Positions 20,956-33,865 of a stretch of 33,865 nt of DNA are shown here, in pieces (the first letter of the stretch is position 1; each line of letters starts with the position of its first letter). The DNA comes from Desulfurellales bacterium (lineage in GTDB: Bacteria; Campylobacterota_A; Desulfurellia; Desulfurellales; Hippeaceae). A program made the translations under genes and the position numbers. The notes beneath the pieces were generated by a model. That model ran no database searches and had not been told where the DNA came from. It saw only the letters and a program-made list of their open reading frames with translations. The DNA lies in contig JALVUQ010000067.1 of NCBI GenBank assembly GCA_027035575.1, positions 1-33,865 on the forward strand. Direction: 5' to 3'.

Positions 20956-22176
20956 TTACGCTTTACTCTTTTTTGTTAAAGATAGTGCTATTAAGAACGT
21001 TATTGTAGGAAGAGTCAAAACAAATATCCTGCAGACCCAAAGCGGAATATTAAGCTCAGCCTGATAACCCGTAATACTTAAAGCAACGAGCATAACAATA
21101 ATAGCCATACCAATGGAACTTGCAATCGGTTTATATTCCAAAGGCTCCCAATAGTGCACCGGCTCTTTTGATTTTGACAAAAACGGTGCTATGGTTACAA
21201 ATCCCATAATAATACTCGGTATAATCAGCCCGCCTATAACTTCGGGATTTATTACAACTCCTCCGGGAAGCGGTATATTCCAACTTCCGGGAATCAGCTT
21301 AATAATTCCGAATATCCACAACAGATACCAATCCGGCTTAACCATAGGTGTTTGAAGCGTGGGGGGACCGAAAATTTCTACGTTATGAACAGGCAGTACC
21401 GATGCAAGGAAGAATAAAACCGAAGCTGTAAATAGGAATACAAACATCATCAAACTAATCTGTTGAGGGTACATAGGAATACCGAGGATTTTCGTGCCTT
21501 TTGTTATTTCTTTGTTTTCTTTGGGTTGTGTGTGTTTTTGTTTAATCATTATAACCATATGTATTCCGATAGTTGCAAGCAGAAGCAGTGGCACAAGAAA
21601 TATGTGGTACATATACAGCCTTGGTATGGAGCCCGGAGCCGGAAAAGTTCCTGCGAATACAAACTTTGCTATGGCGTTTCCAATATATGGTATGGAGTTT
21701 GCAATCTCAAAGCCAATCCCCGTAGCTACTGTTGAGAGAGCATCAAACGGAAGCGAATAACCCGTAAAACCTGCCAATATTGCAAGAGTAAATAAAATCA
21801 TACCTATTACCCAATTGATTTCTCTCGGTTTTTTATACGCTCCGCTGAAGAAAACCCTTGCCATATGCAGCATTAATGCCGCAATCATCAAATGTGCAGC
21901 CCAGTGGTGAACGTATCTGACTATGAGTCCGAAAGGTTGGGAATTTATTATGAGTATGCTGTGGTATGCCATAGGCAGTTTTTTCCCGTTTACAGTGATT
22001 AACTGAGACGACGGCGTGTAGCTAAATAAAAGATATACCCCTGTTAAAACGAGAATAACAAAACTAAACAGGGCTATCTCACCAAAGAAGTATGTCGGGT
22101 GAACGGGGAATACTTTGTTTAAGTATTTTTCTTTAAACCTGTCCAAATCAAGTCTTTCATTTAACCATTTATACAT
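20956..22176 (-). CDS. Cytochrome b of a Rieske/cytochrome b (bc-type) complex
   Basis: This 406-residue, full-length inner-membrane cytochrome b has about eight helices. Heme ligands are His90/His104 (13 residues between) in helix B and His191/His206 (14 between) in helix D. The 14-residue spacing in helix D is the b6-type, while the protein is not split as in b6f. The quinol-oxidation motif PEWY appears as PDWY (281-284). Its start overlaps the Rieske stop by one base, so the two are translated together. No cytochrome c1 gene is adjacent; the small cytochrome c downstream may take over. It likely feeds menaquinol electrons into the nos pathway. Confidence 0.92.
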   Translation of the reverse strand: MYKWLNERLDLDRFKEKYLNKVFPVHPTYFFGEIALFSFVILVLTGVYLLFSYTPSSQLITVNGKKLPMAYHSILIINSQPFGLIVRYVHHWAAHLMIAALMLHMARVFFSGAYKKPREINWVIGMILFTLAILAGFTGYSLPFDALSTVATGIGFEIANSIPYIGNAIAKFVFAGTFPAPGSIPRLYMYHIFLVPLLLLATIGIHMVIMIKQKHTQPKENKEITKGTKILGIPMYPQQISLMMFVFLFTASVLFFLASVLPVHNVEIFGPPTLQTPMVKPDWYLLWIFGIIKLIPGSWNIPLPGGVVINPEVIGGLIIPSIIMGFVTIAPFLSKSKEPVHYWEPLEYKPIASSIGMAIIVMLVALSITGYQAELNIPLWVCRIFVLTLPTITFLIALSLTKKSKA

Positions 22177-22802
22177 TATTTACCTCCCGGTTGAGGACCT
22201 ATGGGTCCGTCAAAATCACCTGCGGCAACTATTTCATTGTCGGCTATCATAATGGGAAGCTGCGGAAGCGGTCTTGGTGCGGGTCCTGCCAGTACTTTGG
22301 CTCCGTGAAATATGTCAAATACCGATTGATGGCACGGACAAAACAGGTGAGGGAAATCAAAGGAGAACTGCTTTTGAGGATACCACTCAACCGTGCATCC
22401 CATATGGGTGCAGATAGCACTGTAGGCTGCAAAGCCGTTTTTTGTTATATAGTCCATTTTTGTAGGTTTTTGAAAATCCTTTACGGGTGAGTGAAACAGT
22501 AAAATAAGATTATGGTGTTCTTCCTTTCCTTTTGGGTACGCCAAAGTTCCTTTATTTAGAGGCAAATCCTCAATTTTGATGATTTGGTTTGCTTTATCAC
22601 CCACGGCAAATACAAGCTTGTCTCCTTTGGCTATTTTCTGTCTTTTTTTCTTTCCTGACTTGTTTTTTATGGTTCCAAAAGGCAGTGTCAAACCGGCAAA
22701 CACGCCTACACCGGCAGTTCCAATCAAACCCTTTATGATGTTTCTTCTTGTTATGCAGGACCTGCTTTCCTCTTCAATACTTTTCTTATCTTTCTCAGAC
22801 AT
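22176..22802 (-). CDS. Rieske 2Fe-2S protein with Tat signal
   Basis: This is the iron-sulfur subunit of the quinol-oxidising complex, 208 residues. A twin-arginine motif TRRNIIKGLIG (about 18-28) begins an anchor helix. The Rieske cluster motifs are C131-T-H133-MG-C136 and C155-P-C157-H158, giving two Cys, two His and the disulfide pair. I chose the ATG at 22802 because GGAGGAG is correctly spaced for it; an ATG at 22814 has no such site. Rieske and cytochrome b genes inside or beside clade II nos clusters have been noted before, so the linkage is known, though the exact arrangement varies. Confidence 0.93.
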   Translation of the reverse strand: MSEKDKKSIEEESRSCITRRNIIKGLIGTAGVGVFAGLTLPFGTIKNKSGKKKRQKIAKGDKLVFAVGDKANQIIKIEDLPLNKGTLAYPKGKEEHHNLILLFHSPVKDFQKPTKMDYITKNGFAAYSAICTHMGCTVEWYPQKQFSFDFPHLFCPCHQSVFDIFHGAKVLAGPAPRPLPQLPIMIADNEIVAAGDFDGPIGPQPGGK

Positions 22803-22830
22803 TTTCTCCTCCATTAGAATAACAGCATAA

Positions 22831-23841
22831 TTACCACGGCAGTTCGTCGTCCATTTCGTGCATAGTCACATTTTCGTCTATATAGTACCGTCTGTACAAA
22901 GCCGTAATAACAGCCAGTACAAAGAACGCCAACGACATAATCAAACCTCTGACCGTCGGTGTTGTTTTTGAGAAGAGCTCGACTATAAACGCCACCACAA
23001 GGAAGATGTCGAACAAACCCAAAAATACTATTGCTATAAAAGGACCGCTTCCAACATTGTCCTTTTTCTCATAAACCGGTTGTGTGGTATCTCCCTCAAT
23101 AGAGGTTGTGACAAATGCTATGAACGAAGCCATTAAAAATAAAACTCCCCATATAATTAAGGCAATCTGATACGATTTTACATCATCAACCCACATACCC
23201 AATCCTTTAGATTTTTTTCCTTTTGAAGAAGCCATAAAGTTGATTTTAGTTTGCCCTCTTGAGCCGGCTCCGTGGTATGTTGTAAAATCGGCTGCCGTTG
23301 AGTAGGCATATATAACATTCATAGGTTTGTTTTCTATGTTTTTTGCAAATTTGGAGGATACCTTCAAAGGTCTTTCAAATTCTACATAAATACCTTTTGG
23401 CGTAATCTTTCCTGCATACTTCCCAATAATCGGTTTTCCGCCCATATTTTTAATAGGAACGTGAGAAAACGGTGTATTGCCGAACTCCTCGCTGATATAT
23501 GTTTTTGAATTTTTAACATAGGCTATGTATATATCGGCATTAAGCATAGCCTTTTTTGCACCCAAACCTACAGCTACCCAGCCTTTTTTGGGAGAGTGCA
23601 TAGCAAAGTAAATCTTTTTACCCTTAATGCGCCAATAGAGACCGTATCCGTTCTTTTTGTCAAAAAAATGATGGGTATATTCTCCGGGTTGCACATTGCC
23701 GTCGATTTTAACAGCAGACAAAAGCTTTACTTGAGGCTTAGCATTTTCGGCGACCATATCAACGGCAACCAGGGTGATTATAAAGATTCCAACAAAAAGA
23801 AACCACCAACCTACTTTTCTGCCAGGTTTTTTAGAGCTCAC
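22831..23841 (-). CDS. DOMON-domain membrane protein, possible b-heme protein
   Basis: This 336-residue protein has an N-terminal helix (about 12-28), a periplasmic beta-sandwich domain (about 40-205) and three C-terminal helices (about 224-245, 266-289, 298-316). The domain has the DOMON pattern GWVAVGLG followed by AMLNADIYIAYV, then TTYHGAG near its end. In heme-binding DOMON domains such as cellobiose dehydrogenase, a Met and a His bind heme b. Met99 and His190 sit at plausible positions, so a b-heme is an inference. A GTG start follows GGAGGAAG. It lies between the second nosD and the Rieske gene in the same operon, which suggests an electron-transfer role. I know no named Nos protein of this build. 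Confidence 0.75.
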   Translation of the reverse strand: MSSKKPGRKVGWWFLFVGIFIITLVAVDMVAENAKPQVKLLSAVKIDGNVQPGEYTHHFFDKKNGYGLYWRIKGKKIYFAMHSPKKGWVAVGLGAKKAMLNADIYIAYVKNSKTYISEEFGNTPFSHVPIKNMGGKPIIGKYAGKITPKGIYVEFERPLKVSSKFAKNIENKPMNVIYAYSTAADFTTYHGAGSRGQTKINFMASSKGKKSKGLGMWVDDVKSYQIALIIWGVLFLMASFIAFVTTSIEGDTTQPVYEKKDNVGSGPFIAIVFLGLFDIFLVVAFIVELFSKTTPTVRGLIMSLAFFVLAVITALYRRYYIDENVTMHEMDDELPW

Positions 23842-23858: not shown

Positions 23859-24839
23859 TTATTTATGCGTTTTCAATTCATCCATAAAGTTTGTTTTATT
23901 GTTTTTGTAAACGATATTTTTAAAAATATTTCTCTTTCTCTGTTTTGCTGTTGTATGTGTGTATATACCTATCTTATTATCGACTATTTTTATATTGTCA
24001 AAGTAGTTTTTTGTTCCTACCTTTACCGGTGACAAATTAATGACCAATCCTTTTGTGCAGTGCTCTATTAATCCGTTTGCAATGTGTGTATTGCTGGCTT
24101 CAATAAAAACAACACCTCTGTATTTATCGCTGCCTTTGACGTTGAAATCTTTAATTGTAGTATCGTGAGCAGAGTTAAGAAGAATGCCTACCTCATTATT
24201 TTTACTTTTGAAGCCTATAATTTTGTTTTTATTTGAATTGACAATCATTGTTCCTATATGTGAATTTTCAACCCTGTTATTTTCAAAAACCACATCGTTT
24301 GAGAACATAGAGGTTACATCCCTTGAGTTGTGTATATAGTTGTCTTTAACAAGGTTGTTCGGAGACCACCATAAACGAATAGCATCACCCATTGCTCCTT
24401 GCGTGTAACCTTTTTTAGAGGAAATTTCATTTCCGATGATTTTAACTTTTTTAGCCGTTTTTGATACAATACCGTATAGACAATTAGCTATTTTATTGTT
24501 TTTTATGATAGAATCCTTGACTTTAATCAATTTTATGCCGGAATCCATTTTCCAGCCGTGAGTTCCGGAATTTTGTAATGTGCAGCCCTGAAGTGTTACG
24601 TTTTTTGTATTTTTAATAGTTACAACATCATCCTTTGCTTGTCCGTCGATAACAGCTCCTTTTTCGCATATGACCTTTAAGGGTTTATTGATTGTTATAG
24701 CCCCTTTGTATATACCTTTTTTGATGTTTATTGTGCTGCCCGGTTGAGCTTTGTCAATTATAGCCTGGAGAGTGTTTGCTTTGGAATAAGACGAAAGACA
24801 TATAGCAAAGGCGGCAAGAAATATAATACTCCTTTTCAT
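23859..24839 (-). CDS. Second NosD-like periplasmic beta-helix protein
   Basis: This 326-residue protein has a signal peptide (about 1-21) and right-handed parallel beta-helix repeats (CASH/NosD type). It is clearly a paralogue of the nosD in this cluster: both have an IIDKAQPGS-like start, the sequence GDAIRLWWS (here 151-159), then a YIHNSRD motif. However, the NosD core RYGIHFMYS is replaced by SHIGTMIVNS (193-202), and the protein is about 110 residues shorter, lacking the C-terminal region. It lies after nosY. I infer a specialised copy for copper-centre assembly or for an operon-specific partner, with a changed binding surface. Its function is unproven. Confidence 0.82.
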   Translation of the reverse strand: MKRSIIFLAAFAICLSSYSKANTLQAIIDKAQPGSTINIKKGIYKGAITINKPLKVICEKGAVIDGQAKDDVVTIKNTKNVTLQGCTLQNSGTHGWKMDSGIKLIKVKDSIIKNNKIANCLYGIVSKTAKKVKIIGNEISSKKGYTQGAMGDAIRLWWSPNNLVKDNYIHNSRDVTSMFSNDVVFENNRVENSHIGTMIVNSNKNKIIGFKSKNNEVGILLNSAHDTTIKDFNVKGSDKYRGVVFIEASNTHIANGLIEHCTKGLVINLSPVKVGTKNYFDNIKIVDNKIGIYTHTTAKQRKRNIFKNIVYKNNKTNFMDELKTHK

Positions 24840-24861: not shown

Positions 24862-25689
24862 TTAAAGATAATCGTTATTTTTAAAATAGATAAAACCGAT
24901 AAAGCAGATGAACAACCCAAGCAATGTAGGATATAGATAGGAAAATAGCAAAAGACCATTATTTCCTATTTTACCCAAAAGTGTCCAGGCAACAGGACCT
25001 ATAACGGCAAGCTTAGGGTCAAACAGGCTGAATGCAGCTATCCTGAACAGCTCAAGAGGATTTGCCAAAGCAAACGCTAAGACTAAATTAACGCCTATAC
25101 CGAACTGCAGAAACAGACCTAAAACTCCAACGTCCAACAGTATCACAAAGAAAAACCATATAAAAAATGCCGTAAAAATAGCCGTATCCTGTTTTTGAGA
25201 AAGAGATGAAACAAAGTATGACAAACCCAAAAAACAGAACGACAAAACAGCGACGAGTGTTGTGTATGTAAGGTAAATATTCCATGGTATGCTGAAATGT
25301 TTTATTAACCCCCAAACTATACTTGTTGCAAATGCAATATATATCGGTATTACTATGACTATAAAACGCCCTATGAATTTACCCCAAAAATATTGTGATA
25401 CCGACATTGGAAAAGACAGTATGTACTCAAGTATCGCAAGTTCTCTCTCCATAACTACAGAGCGGGAGGCACTTATAAGTATAAACAGGGGTAAGATAAC
25501 TATGGTAATCTCTATATATCCGATAAGAACCCTTGATAGACCTGTAAAACCCAATACTTGGGATTCCGTGATGCCAGACCATAAAAATCCTGCCATCATA
25601 CCGAAAAATATTATGAAATACAGATAGAACCATTTTGCTCTGAAAGCATCTTTGATTTCAAATAAAACCATAACCAAAAGGTTTTTCAC
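24862..25689 (-). CDS. nosY: NosY, ABC permease for copper-centre assembly
   Basis: NosY is the membrane part of the NosDFY transporter, which supplies sulfur or otherwise helps build the CuZ site of NosZ. The 275-residue protein has about six hydrophobic segments, and the cytoplasmic stretch RSVVMERELAILEYILSFP is typical of NosY-type ABC-2 permeases. The start is a GTG with an AGGGGTG site. It lies 51 bases after nosF. Confidence 0.88.
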   Translation of the reverse strand: MKNLLVMVLFEIKDAFRAKWFYLYFIIFFGMMAGFLWSGITESQVLGFTGLSRVLIGYIEITIVILPLFILISASRSVVMERELAILEYILSFPMSVSQYFWGKFIGRFIVIVIPIYIAFATSIVWGLIKHFSIPWNIYLTYTTLVAVLSFCFLGLSYFVSSLSQKQDTAIFTAFFIWFFFVILLDVGVLGLFLQFGIGVNLVLAFALANPLELFRIAAFSLFDPKLAVIGPVAWTLLGKIGNNGLLLFSYLYPTLLGLFICFIGFIYFKNNDYL

Positions 25690-25740
25690 GTGCTCACCCC
25701 TTCGAAAGAATTAATCTTTATTTAAGTTTTGTTTTATCGC

Positions 25741-26382
25741 TCAAGCATTGTAGTATTCTTTATCGATAATAATTTCACCGTTATCCATTTCTATGAGTCT
25801 GCTTGCCCTTATACTGCCTTTTTCTTCTCTGTGTGAGGTATATAGAACGGTTGTATCCTCAGGCATAGCATTCACAGCTTTGGATATAATTTCTCTGCTT
25901 TGCGGGTCAATGTGAGCTAACGGTTCATCGAGTATCAATAGGTCGGGAACCCTGCCTAAAGCTATTGCCATAAGCACTTTCTTTTGCATCCCGCCCGAGA
26001 GTCTTTTAAAGCTTCTGTCTATTCCGGCATCTTCAAATTTGAGTTGTTTTAACACATCATAAATAGGCTCGTCATCACTCTTTGTAACATCACAAACAAA
26101 TTCTATAAGTTGTTTAACGGTCATACTCATAGGGGGCGGCAGCTGAGGCACATACCCTATATATTTAGCCAGTTCGCTTTTATTTCTTCTTGCATCTTTA
26201 TCCATAATGACTATGTCTCCGTCATATTTGTATGAGCCTACAATACACCTCAACATAGTGGTCTTTCCACTTCCGTTGCCGCCCACAATCATAACCCGCT
26301 CACCTTTGCTTATGTGAAGGTTGACCTCTTTTAAAACATCACCTTTGCCGAAATTTTTAACAAGATTTTCTATTTCTATCAA
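25741..26382 (-). CDS. nosF: NosF, ABC ATPase
   Basis: This 213-residue cytoplasmic ATPase has Walker A GGNGSGKTT (about 34-42), the signature LSGGMQKKV and Walker B LLILDEPLAHID. It powers NosDFY and is shorter than many NosF proteins (about 300), lacking the C-terminal extension. The start is a TTG behind GAGGTG; no ATG is available near the N-terminus of the domain. Its place between nosH and nosY supports the assignment. Confidence 0.88.
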   Translation of the reverse strand: MIEIENLVKNFGKGDVLKEVNLHISKGERVMIVGGNGSGKTTMLRCIVGSYKYDGDIVIMDKDARRNKSELAKYIGYVPQLPPPMSMTVKQLIEFVCDVTKSDDEPIYDVLKQLKFEDAGIDRSFKRLSGGMQKKVLMAIALGRVPDLLILDEPLAHIDPQSREIISKAVNAMPEDTTVLYTSHREEKGSIRASRLIEMDNGEIIIDKEYYNA

Positions 26383-26394
26383 ATCAACACCTCT

Positions 26395-27315
26395 TTAAGT
26401 AATTTTATCCAAGAAGCGGAAATCAAACTTCAGTGCATCATACGGACATACATCTATACATCTTGCACAGTTTATGCAGGAGGCTCCGGTTACAAACGCA
26501 GTTTTGTCCTTTGTTGTTTTTGAGTCTTTTAAGGCATCTGTGAGCAGTGTGGGTTCTATGCAGACTTTATAGCAGTTTCCGCAATGCGTACATTTGTTTA
26601 AATCGTATCTGACTCTCAATAACGATACTTTCCCAAGCATTCCGTATGTTGTACCGGTCGGGCACACATACTTACACCAAAATCTTCTTGCATAAAAAAC
26701 CTCTATAAATAGTAGCAGCGCAACCCACAGAAGCATAACGGTGGGAACGTATATGAATGCACGGTTTAGTATGTCAACAGGGTTGAAAGACTCAAAAAAT
26801 ATTGTTCCCGTTATAAGCGGTATCAAAAGGAATGTAACCCAAAAGGCATATCTGATTTTTTCAGAATACATTCTTCTTTTTTTAATGACGCCTTTTTTTC
26901 TTAGGTATTCATGGAGTATTTCTCCCAACTCAGCCAACAGGTTATAGGGGCAAACCCAAGCACAGAAAGTTCTTCCTCCTACAACGAAATAAAAGATGAG
27001 AATCGTTAGAAAACCGATTACGGCATTCATAGTAAGAGCTTTGTGTGCCGCAACATACTCCAATCCCGTATATAGGTCTATTAGGAAGAAGCTCATTAAC
27101 CTTGAGCCGTTTAAGCTGCCGGCTAAAAAATCCAAAGCCCATCTGAACGAGAGGGCAAATGTTGCCGTCAGAACAATTATTGTAAACCATCTGACACATC
27201 TATAAGAAATACGTCCGGGTCTCAGTTTTCTTGTGTTAATGAACAGCTCGTAAAAGTTACCCCTTTTCAATTTTTCTTTTTTTCCGGTTGTGTTCGAGTT
27301 TAAATCCTTATGCAT
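26395..27315 (-). CDS. nosH: NosH, membrane iron-sulfur protein (NapH-like)
   Basis: NosH is a NapH-type membrane protein thought to oxidise menaquinol for clade II NosZ. The 306-residue protein has about four helices, two CxxxCP motifs (C118-C122 and C214-C218) and two 4Fe-4S motifs (C242/245/248/252 and C280/283/286/290) on the cytoplasmic side. I chose the ATG at 27315 over an in-frame GTG at 27324, because the TGGGGTG site is correctly spaced for the ATG. It overlaps the end of nosG by 8 bases. Naming follows the Wolinella-type nos genes. Confidence 0.88.
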   Translation of the reverse strand: MHKDLNSNTTGKKEKLKRGNFYELFINTRKLRPGRISYRCVRWFTIIVLTATFALSFRWALDFLAGSLNGSRLMSFFLIDLYTGLEYVAAHKALTMNAVIGFLTILIFYFVVGGRTFCAWVCPYNLLAELGEILHEYLRKKGVIKKRRMYSEKIRYAFWVTFLLIPLITGTIFFESFNPVDILNRAFIYVPTVMLLWVALLLFIEVFYARRFWCKYVCPTGTTYGMLGKVSLLRVRYDLNKCTHCGNCYKVCIEPTLLTDALKDSKTTKDKTAFVTGASCINCARCIDVCPYDALKFDFRFLDKIT

Positions 27316-28003
27316 TTTTTTCACCCCACTTCTTGCCTGGAATTATAACAATAGCCGATGGTTCCACAGGACATACCATCTCACACACACCGCAGCCGGT
27401 GCAGCCCTGTAAAACAACCGGAACCTGATATTCTTTTCCCGTTTTTTTGTCCTTTTTTGTTTCAATAGTTATTGCTCCCGGTCCTATAGGACATTTGTCG
27501 GCGCATAAATTACACACCTCTTTCATATATTCTGCGGGATTAACCTTCCATTTGTATTTCTTTTCATCCCACTTATGTTTGGATACGGTTTTAAGTTTCT
27601 CGTTTTTAACCGCCAAACATCTATCCGGTATAACTTTGGCTATGCCCATCCTAACGCTCTCTGCATTTTCTGCGAGTTCGTGCACCAAAGCGTATGTAGG
27701 GCAAACCAAAACACACTGAATACCTTTGCAGGAAAAATCGCAGGCGTTTGTCCGTGCATCTATATACGGTGTTTGATAAGCAAGCCCTTTGTCAATGTCG
27801 GCTAATTTGATGCAGTCAACAGGACAGATTTGAACGCACAATCCGCATTTGATACAAGCTCCGAGAAAGTCTTTTTCATTTATTGCTCCCGGTGGCCTCA
27901 ACATAGTTTGTTGTTCTTCTTTTAACAGGGGTGTTACACCAACACCAACCGCAGTACCCACGGCTGTTACGCCCAAGTACTTGAAAAACTGGCGTCTTTC
28001 CAT
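27308..28003 (-). CDS. nosG: NosG, periplasmic ferredoxin-type protein (NapG-like)
   Basis: NosG is a NapG homologue that receives electrons from NosH. The 231-residue protein has a Tat motif ERRQFFKYLG at the start and four 4Fe-4S cysteine groups: C50/53/56/60, C88-C101 with the irregular spacing typical of NapG, C164/167/171, and C201/204/207/211. It follows nosD by 2 bases and overlaps nosH, so G and H are coupled. No nosR gene is present in the window, which fits use of NosGH instead. Confidence 0.9.
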   Translation of the reverse strand: MERRQFFKYLGVTAVGTAVGVGVTPLLKEEQQTMLRPPGAINEKDFLGACIKCGLCVQICPVDCIKLADIDKGLAYQTPYIDARTNACDFSCKGIQCVLVCPTYALVHELAENAESVRMGIAKVIPDRCLAVKNEKLKTVSKHKWDEKKYKWKVNPAEYMKEVCNLCADKCPIGPGAITIETKKDKKTGKEYQVPVVLQGCTGCGVCEMVCPVEPSAIVIIPGKKWGEKNA

Positions 28004-28005
28004 AC

Positions 28006-29319
28006 TCAGTTATCTCCTTTTTTGTGTAGTTTTGGCAGATATAAATGCATAAGCGGTTTTCTGTCAACCAGCAGTATGCTCGGTTGTGAAAAAGGTACGA
28101 GTTTTTCTATAAATTTAATAAATGTGAATATAGGAGAACCGTTAAAAAGCATAACGGAGGGGTTATCCTCGGCTATAATGCCCGAGTATTTCATTTCAAA
28201 ATAGGGCAAATCACCTATGCCGTCACCGTTTCTGTCGAATCCTTCATACCTGTCCCAGTAATTTTTATACCAAATTCCCCTTTTTTTATCCAACATTCCT
28301 CCGCTAACCCTAATGTCTTTGAAATTTCCTACGAAGTCATCATGAGTGAATATGTTTTTGTTTCTGTTAATATCTGTGTTGAAATCCATTGCTATGGTGT
28401 TGTAGTAGAATCTGTCATTTATAAACTTACAGCTCATCCCGGGCTCGTACGGAGATTCGTCTATAAATACACCTCTCGTACAGTGTTCTACGGTTACGTT
28501 TTTTGCAACAAGGTTGCTTGCGTCTTTTAAGCCCAGACCAATTGCCGTTACCGTAGTGTTATTTGTAATCAAAGCACCGTCTATTTCAACGTGTGTTGTG
28601 TACATATCGTACATCCCTACCATATTATGGTCTCCGCGGTAGTTTATAACTTTGTCGTAGTTGGAATACATAAAGTGGATGCCGTATCTTGACCTTACGG
28701 TTGTTTGGTCTTGGATAGTGTCGTGGCGGCAAAACCAGACAATCAGGTCTCTTGAATCGTGTATGTAATTACCTTTTAATAAATCGTGGTGGCTCCACCA
28801 GAGTCTAATTGCATCTCCTCTCAAGCCAACCTGTTTATATGGTTTTGAGGATATATCGTTATATGCAATTAAACTATGGTTCATATATTTCGTCTGTATC
28901 CCATACAAACAGTTCTTTATAGTATTGTGGAGTATCTTGATATGGTTGGCTTTTTTTACAGCAATGCCTGCATCCATTTCCCAGCCTTGGTCACCTGAGT
29001 TTTGTATTATCAAGTTCTTTATAGTTACGTTATCGGAGTGCACGGTTATAACATTTCCTTTACCTTCTCCGTCTATTATGGCTTCGTTATGACCGTCAAT
29101 AGTGAGGGGTTTTTTTATAACAACATCCCCGTAGTATATGTCTTTTGGCAAATTTATGACACTACCCGGTTTAGCCTTGTCTATCATATCCTGAAGTCTG
29201 TTTGAAGCCCTTGACGAACTTGATAATAAGAGGAAAATTGACAAAACGGCTGTAAAAATAAGTGCAAAACTATCCGACAAATTTAGCTTGAGTGTTGAAG
29301 CCGTATAAAGCTTTTTCAA
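28006..29319 (-). CDS. nosD: NosD, periplasmic copper-centre maturation protein
   Basis: NosD is the periplasmic beta-helix part of NosDFY. The 437-residue protein has a hydrophobic signal segment (about 17-38), beta-helix repeats, GDAIRLWWS (168-176), DSRD (188-191) and the NosD core RYGIHFMYS (211-219). The C-terminus is full length. The start is a TTG at 29319: on the - strand an AAGGAG lies 7 bases before it, while upstream in-frame starts (to 29382) have no such site. It overlaps the 3' end of nosL by 50 bases. A shorter paralogue lies downstream in the same operon. Confidence 0.92.
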   Translation of the reverse strand: MKKLYTASTLKLNLSDSFALIFTAVLSIFLLLSSSSRASNRLQDMIDKAKPGSVINLPKDIYYGDVVIKKPLTIDGHNEAIIDGEGKGNVITVHSDNVTIKNLIIQNSGDQGWEMDAGIAVKKANHIKILHNTIKNCLYGIQTKYMNHSLIAYNDISSKPYKQVGLRGDAIRLWWSHHDLLKGNYIHDSRDLIVWFCRHDTIQDQTTVRSRYGIHFMYSNYDKVINYRGDHNMVGMYDMYTTHVEIDGALITNNTTVTAIGLGLKDASNLVAKNVTVEHCTRGVFIDESPYEPGMSCKFINDRFYYNTIAMDFNTDINRNKNIFTHDDFVGNFKDIRVSGGMLDKKRGIWYKNYWDRYEGFDRNGDGIGDLPYFEMKYSGIIAEDNPSVMLFNGSPIFTFIKFIEKLVPFSQPSILLVDRKPLMHLYLPKLHKKGDN

Positions 29320-29791
29320 ATTTTTTCTCCTTTTTGAAGATGCTTTTAACAACGTCTTTCCAGGGAATACACTGTTTGACATCTTTGGGTTTGGTTTCGT
29401 AAGCTCCTAAGCCAAAACCCATAGGTGTAATCTGCCCGCTTACCCAGCAGGCTTTTTTTGCGTTAAGCCATTTTCCGTTTTTAGCGCTTGTAACCCAGAT
29501 AACCGCTTTTTTTGCCCACTTGAATTTATGGTCTTTTAGAAGCCATAAAACAGCACATCCTATATCGTCGAATTTATAGGTTTTTTTTGTTATCGGGTTG
29601 ATTATCTCAGCTGCGTGGTATCCGTCAACTATGCTCATATCACAACGTACACAGGTGTCTTCACCCCACCTGATCGGCACGGGTTTCATAGCTGTATTTT
29701 TTTTGTTCACACCGAATATTCCGATAAATATGACTGCCATTATAGCAATGGGTATAAATATGGGTAGTGCTATTTTGAGAAATCTTTTCAT
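29270..29791 (-). CDS. nosL: NosL, copper chaperone for NosZ
   Basis: NosL carries Cu(I) to apo-NosZ. The 173-residue protein shows the family motif C47-VR-C50-D-M52 and the KFDDIGC motif at about 73-79. NosL is normally a lipoprotein, but here no lipobox cysteine follows the hydrophobic N-terminal segment (about 7-27); the first cysteine is Cys47. It is therefore either held by an uncleaved helix or released by signal peptidase I. The 3' end overlaps nosD by 50 bases, so nosD translation may be coupled. Confidence 0.88.
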   Translation of the reverse strand: MKRFLKIALPIFIPIAIMAVIFIGIFGVNKKNTAMKPVPIRWGEDTCVRCDMSIVDGYHAAEIINPITKKTYKFDDIGCAVLWLLKDHKFKWAKKAVIWVTSAKNGKWLNAKKACWVSGQITPMGFGLGAYETKPKDVKQCIPWKDVVKSIFKKEKKFEKALYGFNTQAKFVG

Positions 29792-29804: not shown

Positions 29805-30200
29805 TTACTCCCCTTCCAATTCTTTGAGGTTATCCTGGGCTTTTTTTCCTTTGACGGCTATATTGTTTAAATGTTCCCACTCCTGTTTGGAAAATTTATA
29901 GGCTTTTTCCCAATTTTGTTTTGCAGCGAACTCCTTTGCGTTTTTGTGTGCTTCTTTGGCTTTATCTAATTCGTCATAAAGATATTTTACCTTATCGGCA
30001 ATTGATTGATATTTTTTGTAGTCATTATGCTGTTTGAACCAAGTAAATATCATAGCATCAGTTGCAATCATTCCCCTGTTGACACCTATTTGCCTTTCGT
30101 ATTTAGCTTTATAATTGGTATTTCCATTTTCAACAGCAAAGGATGTTACGGAAAATACAACTATAAAAACAAATGCTATGGCAGCATAAAAAGTCCTCAC
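29805..30200 (-). CDS. Small helical periplasmic protein B (paralogue of the protein at 31486-31878)
   Basis: This 131-residue protein has a signal peptide (about 1-22) and a charged, all-helical mature part without any cysteine or heme motif. It shares a layout and short blocks with the other small nos protein: NYKAKYERQIG... against NYKALYQKTIK..., and an AKQNWEKAYKFSKQEWEHL block against AKKGKYKAAYLWAYQEFQYL. The last block has the spacing of a single TPR-like helix pair. The start is a GTG sharing 4 bases with the nosB-like stop, behind AAGGAG. I do not recognise the family; a role in NosZ maturation or electron transfer is inferred only from position. Confidence 0.7.
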   Translation of the reverse strand: MRTFYAAIAFVFIVVFSVTSFAVENGNTNYKAKYERQIGVNRGMIATDAMIFTWFKQHNDYKKYQSIADKVKYLYDELDKAKEAHKNAKEFAAKQNWEKAYKFSKQEWEHLNNIAVKGKKAQDNLKELEGE

Positions 30201-30970
30201 TGCAAAACTCCTTGATTTTTAAGGTACTTTCTCTTGGACAGGTAGGAAAGAGATATAAAAACAAACGCAATCATAAGCAGTGTAAAGCCGTAAGCAGGTC
30301 TGTTGTGAGTCGAAAACTGCGCTACCTTACCTATGCCGTAGAGAATGGGTGTAAAAGAGTGAACCTTAAAAGATGCCCAAGGGTTTAGGTGGTATCCTAT
30401 CCAGTGCGTCCAATAAGAAAACACCACAATAAAAATAAAAGGGGTAACAAGCGGCAGTATCACCAGCCAACCCAGAAGTTTCTTTTTAACAAAGACAAAT
30501 ACAAGAAGAGAAAGGAACATAAAAAATGCAAGATAGCCGCCTACTTTGCTGAGTACAGGTGCCGATGTTCTCAAAGATTGCATACCGATGTAGTGATTTA
30601 TCGTGTCTATTTCGTGCAGGCAATCAACATTGCGGCATCCGTTAGCAGGACCGTTTATATGTATATTCACAAGCAGTCCGTCTGGGAATGCAGTTCTCGG
30701 ATATTGTGGTGCGTCGAGAATGATTCTCCAAAGCGGTGCGCCTTGAGGAACAATAACTTTGCCGTCAACAGGGATAACAAAATCCGAAATTTGCGTTCCG
30801 AGATGCTCCCATTTTTTAACAAAACCTTTTAGTCCGAAAACTCTCTCTACCCTGCTTGCCTCCATTTTGCTCGTATATACGTCTTTGTTATATACTTTAG
30901 GCCACAGCAAAGCTACGAAGAAAAAAGCAGCACCGATTAATCCGTATATTTGATATTTTTCAAGTTTCAC
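30197..30970 (-). CDS. NosB-like membrane protein
   Basis: This 257-residue protein has an N-terminal helix (about 7-23), a periplasmic region of about 110 residues, and three or four C-terminal helices. It resembles the NosB membrane protein of Wolinella-type nos clusters in build and position. The periplasmic region has a C112-x4-C117-x-H119 group followed by DTINHYIGM (122-130), which looks like a metal- or heme-interacting patch. The start is a GTG (30970) with an AAGGAG 11 bases upstream, a loose spacing. The nosB name is from memory of that cluster and is not certain. Confidence 0.6.
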   Translation of the reverse strand: MKLEKYQIYGLIGAAFFFVALLWPKVYNKDVYTSKMEASRVERVFGLKGFVKKWEHLGTQISDFVIPVDGKVIVPQGAPLWRIILDAPQYPRTAFPDGLLVNIHINGPANGCRNVDCLHEIDTINHYIGMQSLRTSAPVLSKVGGYLAFFMFLSLLVFVFVKKKLLGWLVILPLVTPFIFIVVFSYWTHWIGYHLNPWASFKVHSFTPILYGIGKVAQFSTHNRPAYGFTLLMIAFVFISLSYLSKRKYLKNQGVLQ

Positions 30971-30995
30971 TGTTATGCTATCTCCTTATAAGAAT

Positions 30996-31403
30996 TTACT
31001 TTGCATCTCCGTTGGCAACAGCCATAAGATAATCGTATAATTTCTTAGCGTCTTTTTTTGTCACTCCGTTATTGGGCATATATTGAACGTATTGATTGAT
31101 TAGAGCTTTTACATCCGGTTCCGCATAGTGAGGTTTTGGGTTCATTATCCAACTTATAACCCACTTTTCGGGTTTTGCTTTTGCCAATGCTGCAATAACC
31201 GCAACGGCAGGTCCTGATGTCGAATCTTTGTGCATATACATATGGCATCCGCTGCATCCGTAGTTATCAAAGACATCCCTGAGTTTCTTAACCTCCTGTT
31301 TCGTAAGTTTTTTGGGTGCGGCAGATGTATTCCCGGCGGCAAAAGACATAGATGTCAATCCAAATACAATTGCTACAGCCAAACTTGCAACAGCTTTTTT
31401 CAT
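30996..31403 (-). CDS. Periplasmic monoheme cytochrome c (NosC-like)
   Basis: This 135-residue cytochrome has a signal peptide (about 1-22), the heme motif C50-SG-C53-H54 and a probable Met109 ligand in QYMPNN. It sits near nosZ, as NosC1/NosC2 do in Wolinella, and is the likely direct electron donor to the CuA site of NosZ. It differs from the second cytochrome c at the far end of the cluster (CLACH, MPPY). A GGAGGAG site precedes the ATG, and a hairpin with a T-run lies upstream. Confidence 0.88.
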   Translation of the reverse strand: MKKAVASLAVAIVFGLTSMSFAAGNTSAAPKKLTKQEVKKLRDVFDNYGCSGCHMYMHKDSTSGPAVAVIAALAKAKPEKWVISWIMNPKPHYAEPDVKALINQYVQYMPNNGVTKKDAKKLYDYLMAVANGDAK

Positions 31404-31426
31404 AACAAACTCCTCCTTGTAAAAAC

Positions 31427-31455
31427 GGGGGTAAAACCTTTTAAGCTCTACCCCC
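31427..31455 (-). terminator. Intra-operon hairpin with T-run (possible attenuator)
   Basis: On the - strand GGGGGTA (31455-31449) pairs with TACCCCC (31433-31427) around a 15-base loop and is followed by GTTTTTA. It lies between protein A and the cytochrome c gene. This is the form of a Rho-independent terminator. It would leave nosZ and gene A more abundant than the downstream genes, or protect the 3' end of a processed nosZ-A message. Confidence 0.6.
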
Positions 31456-31485
31456 TAAAATTAAAGTAAAATAAACGTGTGAATA

Positions 31486-31878
31486 TTACTTGGGCTGTGA
31501 AGTTATCAAGTTATTAATAACGTTAAGCTTAACAACAGCCTTGACCAGATATTGAAATTCCTGATATGCCCAAAGATAAGCAGCTTTATATTTGCCCTTT
31601 TTTGCCAATTTTTCAGCTTTTGCTCTAACTTCGTTTGCATATTTTATCTGGTCGTTTGCATCGCTCATAATTCCTGCTGCGGTTTTGTTCTTTTCATAGC
31701 CGGCTTTAGCCAATTTTTTCTTTACAACCTTTATCTGGTGTCTGATTCCGTCGTTTGTTTTAATTGTCTTTTGGTAGAGAGCCTTGTAATTTTCGCCTGC
31801 CATTGAAGGAATTGCTCCCATAGCAACAAACGATGCAAGTACAAAAAGTATCACATTAAATTTGAATAATTTTCTCAT
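31486..31878 (-). CDS. Small helical periplasmic protein A
   Basis: This 130-residue protein follows nosZ by 23 bases. It has a signal peptide (about 1-27) and a lysine/alanine-rich helical mature part with no cysteines or heme motif. It is a paralogue of the protein at 29805-30200, judged by the matching NYKALYQ start of the mature part and the AKKGKYKAAYLWAYQEFQYL block near the C-terminus. An AAGGAG site precedes the ATG. I do not recognise the family and give no function. Its position next to nosZ, before a likely attenuator, suggests it is made at NosZ-like levels. Confidence 0.75.
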   Translation of the reverse strand: MRKLFKFNVILFVLASFVAMGAIPSMAGENYKALYQKTIKTNDGIRHQIKVVKKKLAKAGYEKNKTAAGIMSDANDQIKYANEVRAKAEKLAKKGKYKAAYLWAYQEFQYLVKAVVKLNVINNLITSQPK

Positions 31879-31901: not shown

Positions 31902-33865
31902 TTATCCTTCACTATTGAAAAATGCGCCTTCGGGGAACTTGCCGTCTTTCGGAAGAACGGCAATATAACCGAACATTTCAAGGTGAAGGGCTGAACAGAA
32001 TTCCTGGCAGTAGAACGGATAGATTCCCTCTTTGTCTGCAACAAATTCTACCGTTGCCGTTTTGCCCGGTTCCAGAGAGGTTGTTACGTTGAAGTAGTAA
32101 ACACCGAAATCGTGCGTTTCATCCTCTGCTCTTTCCAAGTTAGTGATATGAATAGTAACTTTATCTCCAACCTTGCAGTAAATATGCTCAGGATTGAAGT
32201 GACTCCTGATTGCTGTAGCCCAAACCTCAACGTGATTGCCCTTTCTGACAACCTTTTCACGACCGGCAAGTGTTCTGTTTGGTGACCTTGCCATAGTAAT
32301 TGCGTCCGTACCCAAAGGATAAACCTTCCAGGCTCTCTTTTCGAGAATCTTTGTGTCTATAATTTGGGCATAGTGCGGTTCTCCAAGCGGGAAAGGCATA
32401 GCATAGAGCATTCTCATATTCTTGTGCAGCGGGTCGGATATGTCTATAAGCTCGTGATTTTGAGGATGAAGAGGTCCTACCTCGACAAATCTATCAATAG
32501 CCAATTTGTTTAGAGAAATCAGATAATTTCCTCTTGGGTTTACCGTATCGCCGTGAACGGCAGTTAAGTGTCCGACGTTGTAGTGGATAGGAATTCTATC
32601 GAGAACCTTAAGCTTGATGTAGTCATATTTAACCACAGCAGAGTCAACAAAGAGTGAGTTGTATGCAATATGAGAATCGGCAACGTCAAATTGGTTATGC
32701 AGAGGTCCGAGACCTGTTTGAACCATACCGTGCAGAGTCCTTCTCATAGAAAGAATAGGAATGCCGTATGGGTCTTTGCCGTCGTATATCTTGTTTTCAA
32801 TCAGATGCATAATCTTTTTGAAATCATATACCGATACGTGCGTGTCAAGTTTTCCGGATGCAAGTATATATCTTCCGTCAGGGCTGACCGTTATTCCGTG
32901 AGGGCTCTTCATAACAGGAATTAGATAGACAAGCCCGTTTTCCACGGCAGCCTTAATAGGTATAACCTTATGTCCGTTTACAGTTTTATAATTACCTTTC
33001 TTTATAACCTCTTCAGCCTTTTTCCAGTTTGTCATATGGATAAAGTCTGTGTCGTTTGCGGAGCATCCGGCTTCAAAGGGAGGATTGCCTCTTTCGATAC
33101 CACCTATATATCTTTCGGTATTGAAAGAGTTTGAGAATCCCCAGTCAGCGCTCATCAATTTTCCGCAGTCGTTAATATCCTGCATATAGGGAGGAAGTTC
33201 AATGGTGAAGGAGTTTTCCATATCTATTCTGCCCTTTTTTCTGTCGAACTTCCAGTATGTATGTCCGCCTCTATAGACAGTATTGTAAACCTCCTGATCC
33301 ATCGGGTCGTGATATTTTTCATCATACGGAGCGGCATACTGACAGGCTGTAAATACATATTCCGTATTCTGAGTAACGCTTGTTCCGCCGTGAGTTGATT
33401 TTAGTACGGGGTTTTTAACAATTTGTTTTGTCTGCCAGTCACGTGTGTCTATAACTGCCAATCTTCCCTGGCTTTTGTCGTTTATAAATGCGTATTCGCC
33501 GTCGTAATCACCTTTGGTTTCAGAAAATCCGGGGTGGTGGGTGTCGCCTGTGTAAACAGGTCTTCCCTGAACAGAACCTTCTTCCAAGACCTTTTGGGAT
33601 TCTTTATCAAAACCCCATCCCTGCCATGTTTCTTTGCCAAAAACCGCAACAGTTTTTATAAGCCTCATAGAAGGAACGCCGTATAGGAATATGTGTCCGC
33701 TTTGACCGCCTGAGGATAAACATACATACGGGTCGTGCACACCTTCCGGTACATAAGTTTTTGCGGCAGCTAAAACGTTGTCCGGGGTTAATCCCCTTTC
33801 TTTCATTACCTTGGCAAGTTCCCCTGAAATTCCGGCTGCATCAGCCTTAGGGGTTTTGGTTGTAC
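31902..33865 (-). CDS. nosZ: Nitrous oxide reductase, clade II type (5' end cut by the window)
   Basis: NosZ reduces N2O to N2 in the periplasm. The frame is open to the window edge, so the start codon and signal peptide are not visible; about 650 residues are seen. The CuZ region shows the histidine-rich GDTHHPGFSET, GPLHNQFD, IHYNVGHLTAVHG and SPHGITVSPDGR motifs. The CuA site is complete: CQEFCSALHLEM at 31974-32009 plus a histidine in ETHDFG. The sequence style (for example GGQSGHIFLYGVPSMR) and the accompanying genes fit clade II. There is no fused C-terminal cytochrome c domain as in Wolinella, so a free cytochrome must donate electrons. Confidence 0.96.
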   Translation of the reverse strand, partial: TTKTPKADAAGISGELAKVMKERGLTPDNVLAAAKTYVPEGVHDPYVCLSSGGQSGHIFLYGVPSMRLIKTVAVFGKETWQGWGFDKESQKVLEEGSVQGRPVYTGDTHHPGFSETKGDYDGEYAFINDKSQGRLAVIDTRDWQTKQIVKNPVLKSTHGGTSVTQNTEYVFTACQYAAPYDEKYHDPMDQEVYNTVYRGGHTYWKFDRKKGRIDMENSFTIELPPYMQDINDCGKLMSADWGFSNSFNTERYIGGIERGNPPFEAGCSANDTDFIHMTNWKKAEEVIKKGNYKTVNGHKVIPIKAAVENGLVYLIPVMKSPHGITVSPDGRYILASGKLDTHVSVYDFKKIMHLIENKIYDGKDPYGIPILSMRRTLHGMVQTGLGPLHNQFDVADSHIAYNSLFVDSAVVKYDYIKLKVLDRIPIHYNVGHLTAVHGDTVNPRGNYLISLNKLAIDRFVEVGPLHPQNHELIDISDPLHKNMRMLYAMPFPLGEPHYAQIIDTKILEKRAWKVYPLGTDAITMARSPNRTLAGREKVVRKGNHVEVWATAIRSHFNPEHIYCKVGDKVTIHITNLERAEDETHDFGVYYFNVTTSLEPGKTATVEFVADKEGIYPFYCQEFCSALHLEMFGYIAVLPKDGKFPEGAFFNSEG

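Follow-up and report, generated by a model that had tools for sequence, protein, structure and literature searches.

N2O is a strong greenhouse gas whose main known biological sink is NosZ, and the clade II nos clusters hold accessory genes of unknown function. Two small genes in one such cluster, here called A and B, raise the question of whether their products are partners of NosZ and, if so, at which step they act. An earlier note had proposed that they encode a duplicated, otherwise undescribed partner of NosZ or of its cytochromes. The window, that is, the whole stretch of DNA analysed (33,865 nucleotides), is one whole contig of a 1.7-Mb genome, and its closest named relatives are metagenome-assembled genomes of Desulfurellaceae/Hippea.

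The nos cluster

The clade II nos cluster of the window is complete, with nosZ running past the contig end (33865). The gene order is nosZ-A-cytochrome c-nosB-B-nosL-nosD-nosG-nosH-nosF-nosY-nosD2-DOMON protein-Rieske-cytochrome b, and the features are as follows:

31902..33865, minus strand: nosZ, clade II (Sec-type), with the N-terminus lost at the contig end (TIGR04246, E 4.5e-231)
31486..31878, minus strand: protein A, predicted exported three-helix bundle and candidate partner, first gene after nosZ
31798..31878, minus strand: predicted signal peptide of A at about residues 1-27, modelled with low confidence (sequence, AlphaFold2 model)
31427..31455, minus strand: terminator-like hairpin 3' of A, 13 pairs followed by GTTTTT (z -3.6)
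30996..31403, minus strand: mono-haem cytochrome c, candidate NosZ electron donor (CSGCH motif; synteny; Cytochrom_C, E 0.0016, slightly under the gathering score)
30197..30970, minus strand: nosB, membrane protein typical of clade II clusters (position; homologues in seven relatives and in distant nos clusters)
29805..30200, minus strand: protein B, predicted exported three-helix-bundle paralogue of A, overlapping the end of nosB
29270..29791, minus strand: nosL-like copper chaperone (NosL, E 0.006, under the gathering score; synteny)
28006..29382, minus strand: nosD, first copy (TIGR04247, E 4e-106)
27308..28003, minus strand: nosG, ferredoxin-like
26395..27324, minus strand: nosH, polyferredoxin membrane protein
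25741..26382, minus strand: nosF, ABC ATPase
24862..25689, minus strand: nosY, ABC membrane protein
23859..24839, minus strand: second nosD-like gene (TIGR04247, 190.7 bits, cut-off 300)
22831..23841, minus strand: DOMON-domain membrane protein (DOMON, E 3.5e-18; synteny)
22176..22814, minus strand: Rieske iron-sulfur protein
20956..22176, minus strand: cytochrome b

The NosZ of the window looks functional, because all seven CuZ histidines and every CuA ligand are kept (ligand columns HHHHHHH / HCCHM). The order nosZ-A-cytochrome c-nosB-B-nosL-nosD was common to seven Desulfurellaceae/Hippea genomes (the window and six relatives, within contig reach), and a class-level relative had A and lacked B. 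Members of this family are known as sulfur reducers; nosZ is patchy among them (7 of 16 genomes), and our search found no paper discussing a clade II nos cluster in Desulfurellaceae/Hippea.

Three further features of the cluster were recorded. The second NosD-like protein is a shorter beta-helix, kept downstream of nosY across the family. The DOMON protein keeps its place, after this second nosD and before the Rieske gene, in the family members with contigs long enough. A second nosL-like gene lies between nosF and nosY at five loci (L045, L047, L048, L049 and L050), and is absent from the window (25690-25740) and from L046.

The 13-pair hairpin and its GTTTTT tract, located between A and the cytochrome gene, separate nosZ and A from the other genes of the cluster. 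Hairpins were found at a like position in 6 of 12 loci, with stem sequences that differed except between the two closest genomes, which suggests that nosZ and A may form one transcription unit; some of the 12 loci had no hairpin, and in L126 the hairpin sat between nosZ and the gene. As the count of terminator-like sites over the whole region was not above that of shuffled sequences, the argument depends on the strength and place of one hairpin. Where present, this hairpin would set nosZ and A apart from the maturation genes, which favours a stoichiometric role for A.

Proteins A and B are distant paralogues

A (130 aa) starts with ATG 23 bases past the nosZ stop codon and is preceded by a good ribosome-binding site, AAAGGAGTGAGTTATG; B (131 aa) starts with GTG. 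Both genes are on the minus strand, and each product has an N-terminal hydrophobic export signal and no cysteine. The open reading frames and the AlphaFold2 models agree with the earlier description of two Cys-free, signal-bearing helical proteins of about 130 residues at these positions. Values of dN/dS were 0.05-0.10 among the A sequences of the family and 0.08 between B and its nearest relative, indicating that both are genuine constrained proteins under purifying selection. The mature part opens with NYKA-x-Y in both proteins (ENYKALY in A, TNYKAKY in B), just as first noticed. The second shared block that had been described, A-x-x-L/F-A-K with a following spacer, does exist (AEKLAKKGKYKAAY in A, AKEFAAKQNWEKAY in B), but the lysine after L/F-A is not common to the two proteins and the spacer has one more residue.

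BLASTP aligned A and B with 27% identity over 122 aa (E 2e-6). Sequences from relatives were assembled into family alignments for A (A1, 8 sequences) and for B (A2, 7 sequences), and the profile comparison of the pair that had been suggested, run with hhalign, gave significant similarity (probability 97.6, E 4e-12). With the signal peptides removed, the E-value was 3.7e-9 and the score 52.8, against a maximum of 18.1 among 60 column-shuffled controls. A and B are, thus, distant paralogues. Column shuffles do not keep helical periodicity, and the genome-wide search with a profile of A and B, described below, is therefore the stronger control.

In the AlphaFold2 models, which were built on shallow alignments, the mature parts of A and B share a three-helix bundle (pLDDT about 97), with the helices of A at residues 31-58, 65-93 and 97-126. 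A Foldseek search with both models against the PDB yielded no match below E 0.5, and sequence searches of A and B against Pfam, NCBIfam and the PDB returned nothing over cut-off. The view that neither protein matches a nameable Nos protein was borne out, as no Pfam or NCBIfam Nos model (NosL, NosX, NosR or NosD) fitted. A role as c-type cytochrome or haem donor was ruled out for both, since they have no cysteine and hence no CxxCH, as was identity with the NosL copper chaperone (no PF05573 match, no Cys ligand). A is strongly basic and helical, without cofactor motifs, and a copper or haem role for it was dropped in the absence of a shared Met, His or Cys ligand. In B, M44, M50, H58 and H85 are invariant in the seven-sequence alignment and are not found in A or in the fused domains described below; B may still bind copper or haem.

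Several weak profile matches were rejected. The HEPN model (PF05168) gave 16.2 bits with A and 17.3 bits with a G094 protein, against a gathering score of 22 (best E among alignment members, 2.4e-4); the A alignment has no invariant histidine that could be the conserved catalytic one of the R-x4-6-H motif, and the proteins are exported. The SoxAX-binding protein model (SAXB, NF052674) weakly matched three proteins of another phylum, the best of them at 19.7 bits against a cut-off of 95, which does not surpass the scores of ATP synthase b coiled coils, and it did not match A or B. The HEPN, SAXB and ATP-synthase-b matches were all attributed to helical background.

In the genomes searched, the domain is confined to nos loci and, in three lineages, fused to NosZ

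A joint profile of A and B only, with no other sequences (A3), was run over 386 genomes (about 320 genera, six-frame), and NosZ was searched for in the same genomes. A3 matched 13 of the 386 genomes, all 13 of them NosZ-positive, and 44 genomes were NosZ-positive overall. Related genomes are not independent, so that the 13 matches correspond to about five separate occurrences; five of the 13 genomes fall outside the window's class, where lineages were counted by family labels.

The three best A3 matches outside this class (E 1e-13 to 1e-17), from three unrelated lineages (G264, G278 and G361), all lie inside the NosZ ORF, in a C-terminal extension of 128-134 residues located right after the CuA motif. 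The other complete NosZ proteins examined have tails of 7-41 residues, except for a haem c-bearing paralogue in G264. The two remaining matches outside the class are to a separate small exported protein, encoded directly after nosZ. In a small phylum other than that of the window, all five genomes have this stand-alone form, located immediately 3' of nosZ in four of them; in the fifth, the two genes lie at the ends of two contigs. The clusters of this phylum have no cytochrome c gene adjoining nosZ, save a possible three-haem ORF in two of them, and the partner of the domain need not, therefore, be a cytochrome. This possible donor would be encoded by a small ORF that lies upstream of nosB and contains CxxCH three times (L119:12753-13142 and L122:4873-5253).

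Profiles of the mature domains tied together A, B, the fused domain (F) and the stand-alone form of the other phylum (S), with none of 60 shuffles equal in each case. In hhalign comparisons of mature parts, E was 2.8e-15 for A and F and 2.7e-11 for B and F (0/60 shuffles for both), and A and B are each nearer F than each other. The deep nodes of a tree of this short domain were too poorly supported to date the A/B duplication. The most widely shared stretch is in helix 3, near Q-Y-L/Q-V-K-x-A in A, F and S. The pI is about 10 for A and 4.3-5.9 for the fused domains, and no metal or haem ligand common to all groups was found; with charge not conserved and no such ligand, no single docking chemistry is evident.

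The A3 search of the 386 genomes identified no credible homologue beyond nos loci. The search for homologues and their neighbourhoods, which the earlier note had called for, thus showed them not to be widespread outside nos clusters. Among the 25 genomes of the window's phylum, homologues of A over its full length were present only in the eight that are NosZ-positive, the other matches being B itself or partial matches within larger ORFs; B was found here only in the Desulfurellaceae/Hippea family. A second run over 386 genomes (apparently mostly the same) with a later profile gave one further significant match (G187, E 6e-4), rejected as part of an HlyD-type coiled coil. A G042 match and partial matches in G012, G011 and G015 were also set aside, as borderline and inside larger ORFs. 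Phylum-centred searches on G361, G264 and G278, all tiny groups, added nothing and, save for borderline partial matches in larger ORFs, agreed with confinement to nos loci. A pattern scan of genome contigs reached only Desulfurellaceae/Hippea and one class-level relative, and tblastn of the fused tail against plasmids was discarded because it matched mainly the CuA motif, not the whole helical domain.

The domain was not detected at E <= 0.001 in 31 of the 44 NosZ-positive genomes (28 if the extra genome of the small phylum and two weak lipoprotein cases are included), and is not, therefore, universally needed. A more sensitive profile run over the remaining NosZ-positive genomes recovered only one weak candidate, a lipoprotein of about 166 aa encoded between nosB and nosD in one lineage (f10; L052:4165-4665 and L142:8064-8567), with a helical C-terminal domain and the helix-3 motif in common (EVWQLLVKT). 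Its whole-genome matches were weak (E 0.008 and 0.03), and its profile exceeded shuffles when compared with the fused group and with f74, though not when compared with A or with B. It is possibly a membrane-anchored member of the family.

A split NosZ pair carrying the domain

One of the fused domains is part of an unusual pair. G264 has two adjacent nosZ paralogues with a one-base overlap (TAATG; L123:7264-11903, G264:C81). The first product keeps CuA (H, C, C, H, M) and has lost six of the seven CuZ histidines (the seven positions read R Y H K D E Y); this is the chain with the A-type domain. In the second, the seven CuZ histidines are all present and the CuA positions read Y L H G L; it bears a C-terminal haem c domain and is an apparent lipoprotein. 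Wholesale copper-site loss was limited to this pair among the 47 NosZ sequences or fragments compared, and no further NosZ was found in G264 at E <= 1e-100; the pair is known from a single draft genome.

In known NosZ dimers, the CuA of one chain faces the CuZ of the other and the enzyme works across the dimer interface, so that the two chains, as a heterodimer, could hold one complete electron path. The A-type domain stayed on the CuA-keeping chain, which suggests that it belongs with the electron-entry half. We advance with considerable reserve, as a possibility on the less likely side, a broader model in which the A-type domain is a structural NosZ subunit that several phyla have on the CuA side and that accompanied a split of NosZ, with, in one lineage, an obligate heterodimer whose CuA and A-type chain would pass electrons to the CuZ and haem c chain. 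We found no description of a NosZ with separated copper sites in the open-licence literature, which is weak evidence. If functional, this CuA-only/CuZ-only pair would mean that the copper sites need not share a chain and can be divided between two.

Role of A and B

On the grounds of fusion, of linkage and of restriction to nos loci, A is very probably a NosZ partner, and the case goes beyond gene neighbourhood: in three lineages, the C-terminus of NosZ itself carries a homologous domain. From fusion and linkage, we infer that stand-alone A would bind NosZ physically. The earlier proposal of a duplicated partner therefore gained support as regards A; the case is weaker for B, a candidate partner, which is a nos-locus paralogue of A limited in our searches to the Desulfurellaceae/Hippea family.

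The explanation that we favour by a little is that A is a NosZ-specific accessory subunit on the CuA domain, and B a diverged paralogue at the same locus. The small exported bundle, encoded directly 3' of nosZ, would rest on the C-terminal CuA (cupredoxin) domain, the position at which the same domain is covalently joined to NosZ in other lineages, and would take the place where other NosZ enzymes bear a C-terminal haem c domain. It would most likely serve as a docking or stabilising platform by CuA, on the electron-entry side. Participation of A in electron entry at the CuA side, or in its protection, is the best single mechanism, with roughly even chances of being correct. B, encoded next to nosB and nosL, would probably do a related docking job for the membrane or copper-delivery part.

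The main rival is that A (and B) are assembly helpers, periplasmic chaperones that would hold Sec-exported, unfolded NosZ during CuA/CuZ loading, the fused form being an intramolecular chaperone. Clade II NosZ is exported unfolded via Sec (PMC11096178), and a folding helper is therefore plausible; the strongly basic, helical, motif-free character of A would suit such a role, as would the position of B between nosB and nosL and its invariant M44, M50, H58 and H85. However, there is no need for a maturation factor to stay attached to the enzyme, or to lie with nosZ in one terminator-bounded unit, and these residues of B are missing from A and the fused domains. We consider a folding or copper-loading helper rather unlikely. 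A third reading, to which we give a lower probability still, makes the domain a dimer or scaffold clamp that steadies the NosZ dimer (in G264, a possible heterodimer) or tethers NosZ to the membrane, with no direct redox role. It draws on the work of NosZ across the dimer interface, the complementary, half-dead G264 chains and the possible lipoprotein form between nosB and nosD, but the lipoprotein link is weak (E 0.008 and 0.03, with the comparison with A not over shuffles).

It might also be supposed that A and B are generic small helical periplasmic proteins, of a coiled-coil or HEPN/SAXB-like kind, present in nos operons by chance and alike only in amphipathic composition. The HEPN, ATP synthase b and SAXB matches, all under their cut-offs, and the absence of a significant Foldseek match are what such proteins might show. 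Nevertheless, the profile of A and B had no matches outside nos loci in 386 six-frame genomes, its three best matches outside the class fell on the NosZ C-terminus, and the sole extra match with the later profile was an HlyD-type coiled coil (E 6e-4). The NosZ fusions and the confinement to nos loci largely refute this reading, which we regard as very improbable.

Relationship to known systems

The three-helix domain family is previously unnamed, without a Pfam or NCBIfam entry, and no description of the A-type domain was found in the open-licence literature (weak evidence). A family located beside nosZ and repeatedly fused to it is likely to be an enzyme subunit, although annotation pipelines would label it hypothetical. 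It could influence electron acceptance by NosZ or NosZ maturation, and the fusions open its role to direct testing.

NosL, NosX, NosR and NosD are, like A and B, accessory Nos proteins of the periplasmic side, although their models do not match A or B. NosB, NosC1/NosC2, NosG and NosH share with them the same cluster and an accessory electron-transfer role in N2O respiration, but are membrane, haem or Fe-S proteins, whereas A and B, soluble bundles that are exported, carry no cofactor motif and do not match them in sequence. The top structural look-alikes of B include DUF4398 (PA2901, 4fm3) and FAT-domain bundles, at Foldseek E-values that are not significant (0.5-4). SAXB, or SoxK, which is small, helical and exported and binds a redox enzyme of the periplasm, resembles the A-type family by analogy only. 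A parallel in position is the haem c domain found in some NosZ of clade II (the Wolinella-type cytochrome c N2O reductase). It differs from A, B and the fused domain, all of which lack CxxCH, and A and B are predicted to form a three-helix bundle instead, but the haem c domain likewise sits on the NosZ C-terminus beside CuA, and the two paralogues of G264 bear one domain of each type.
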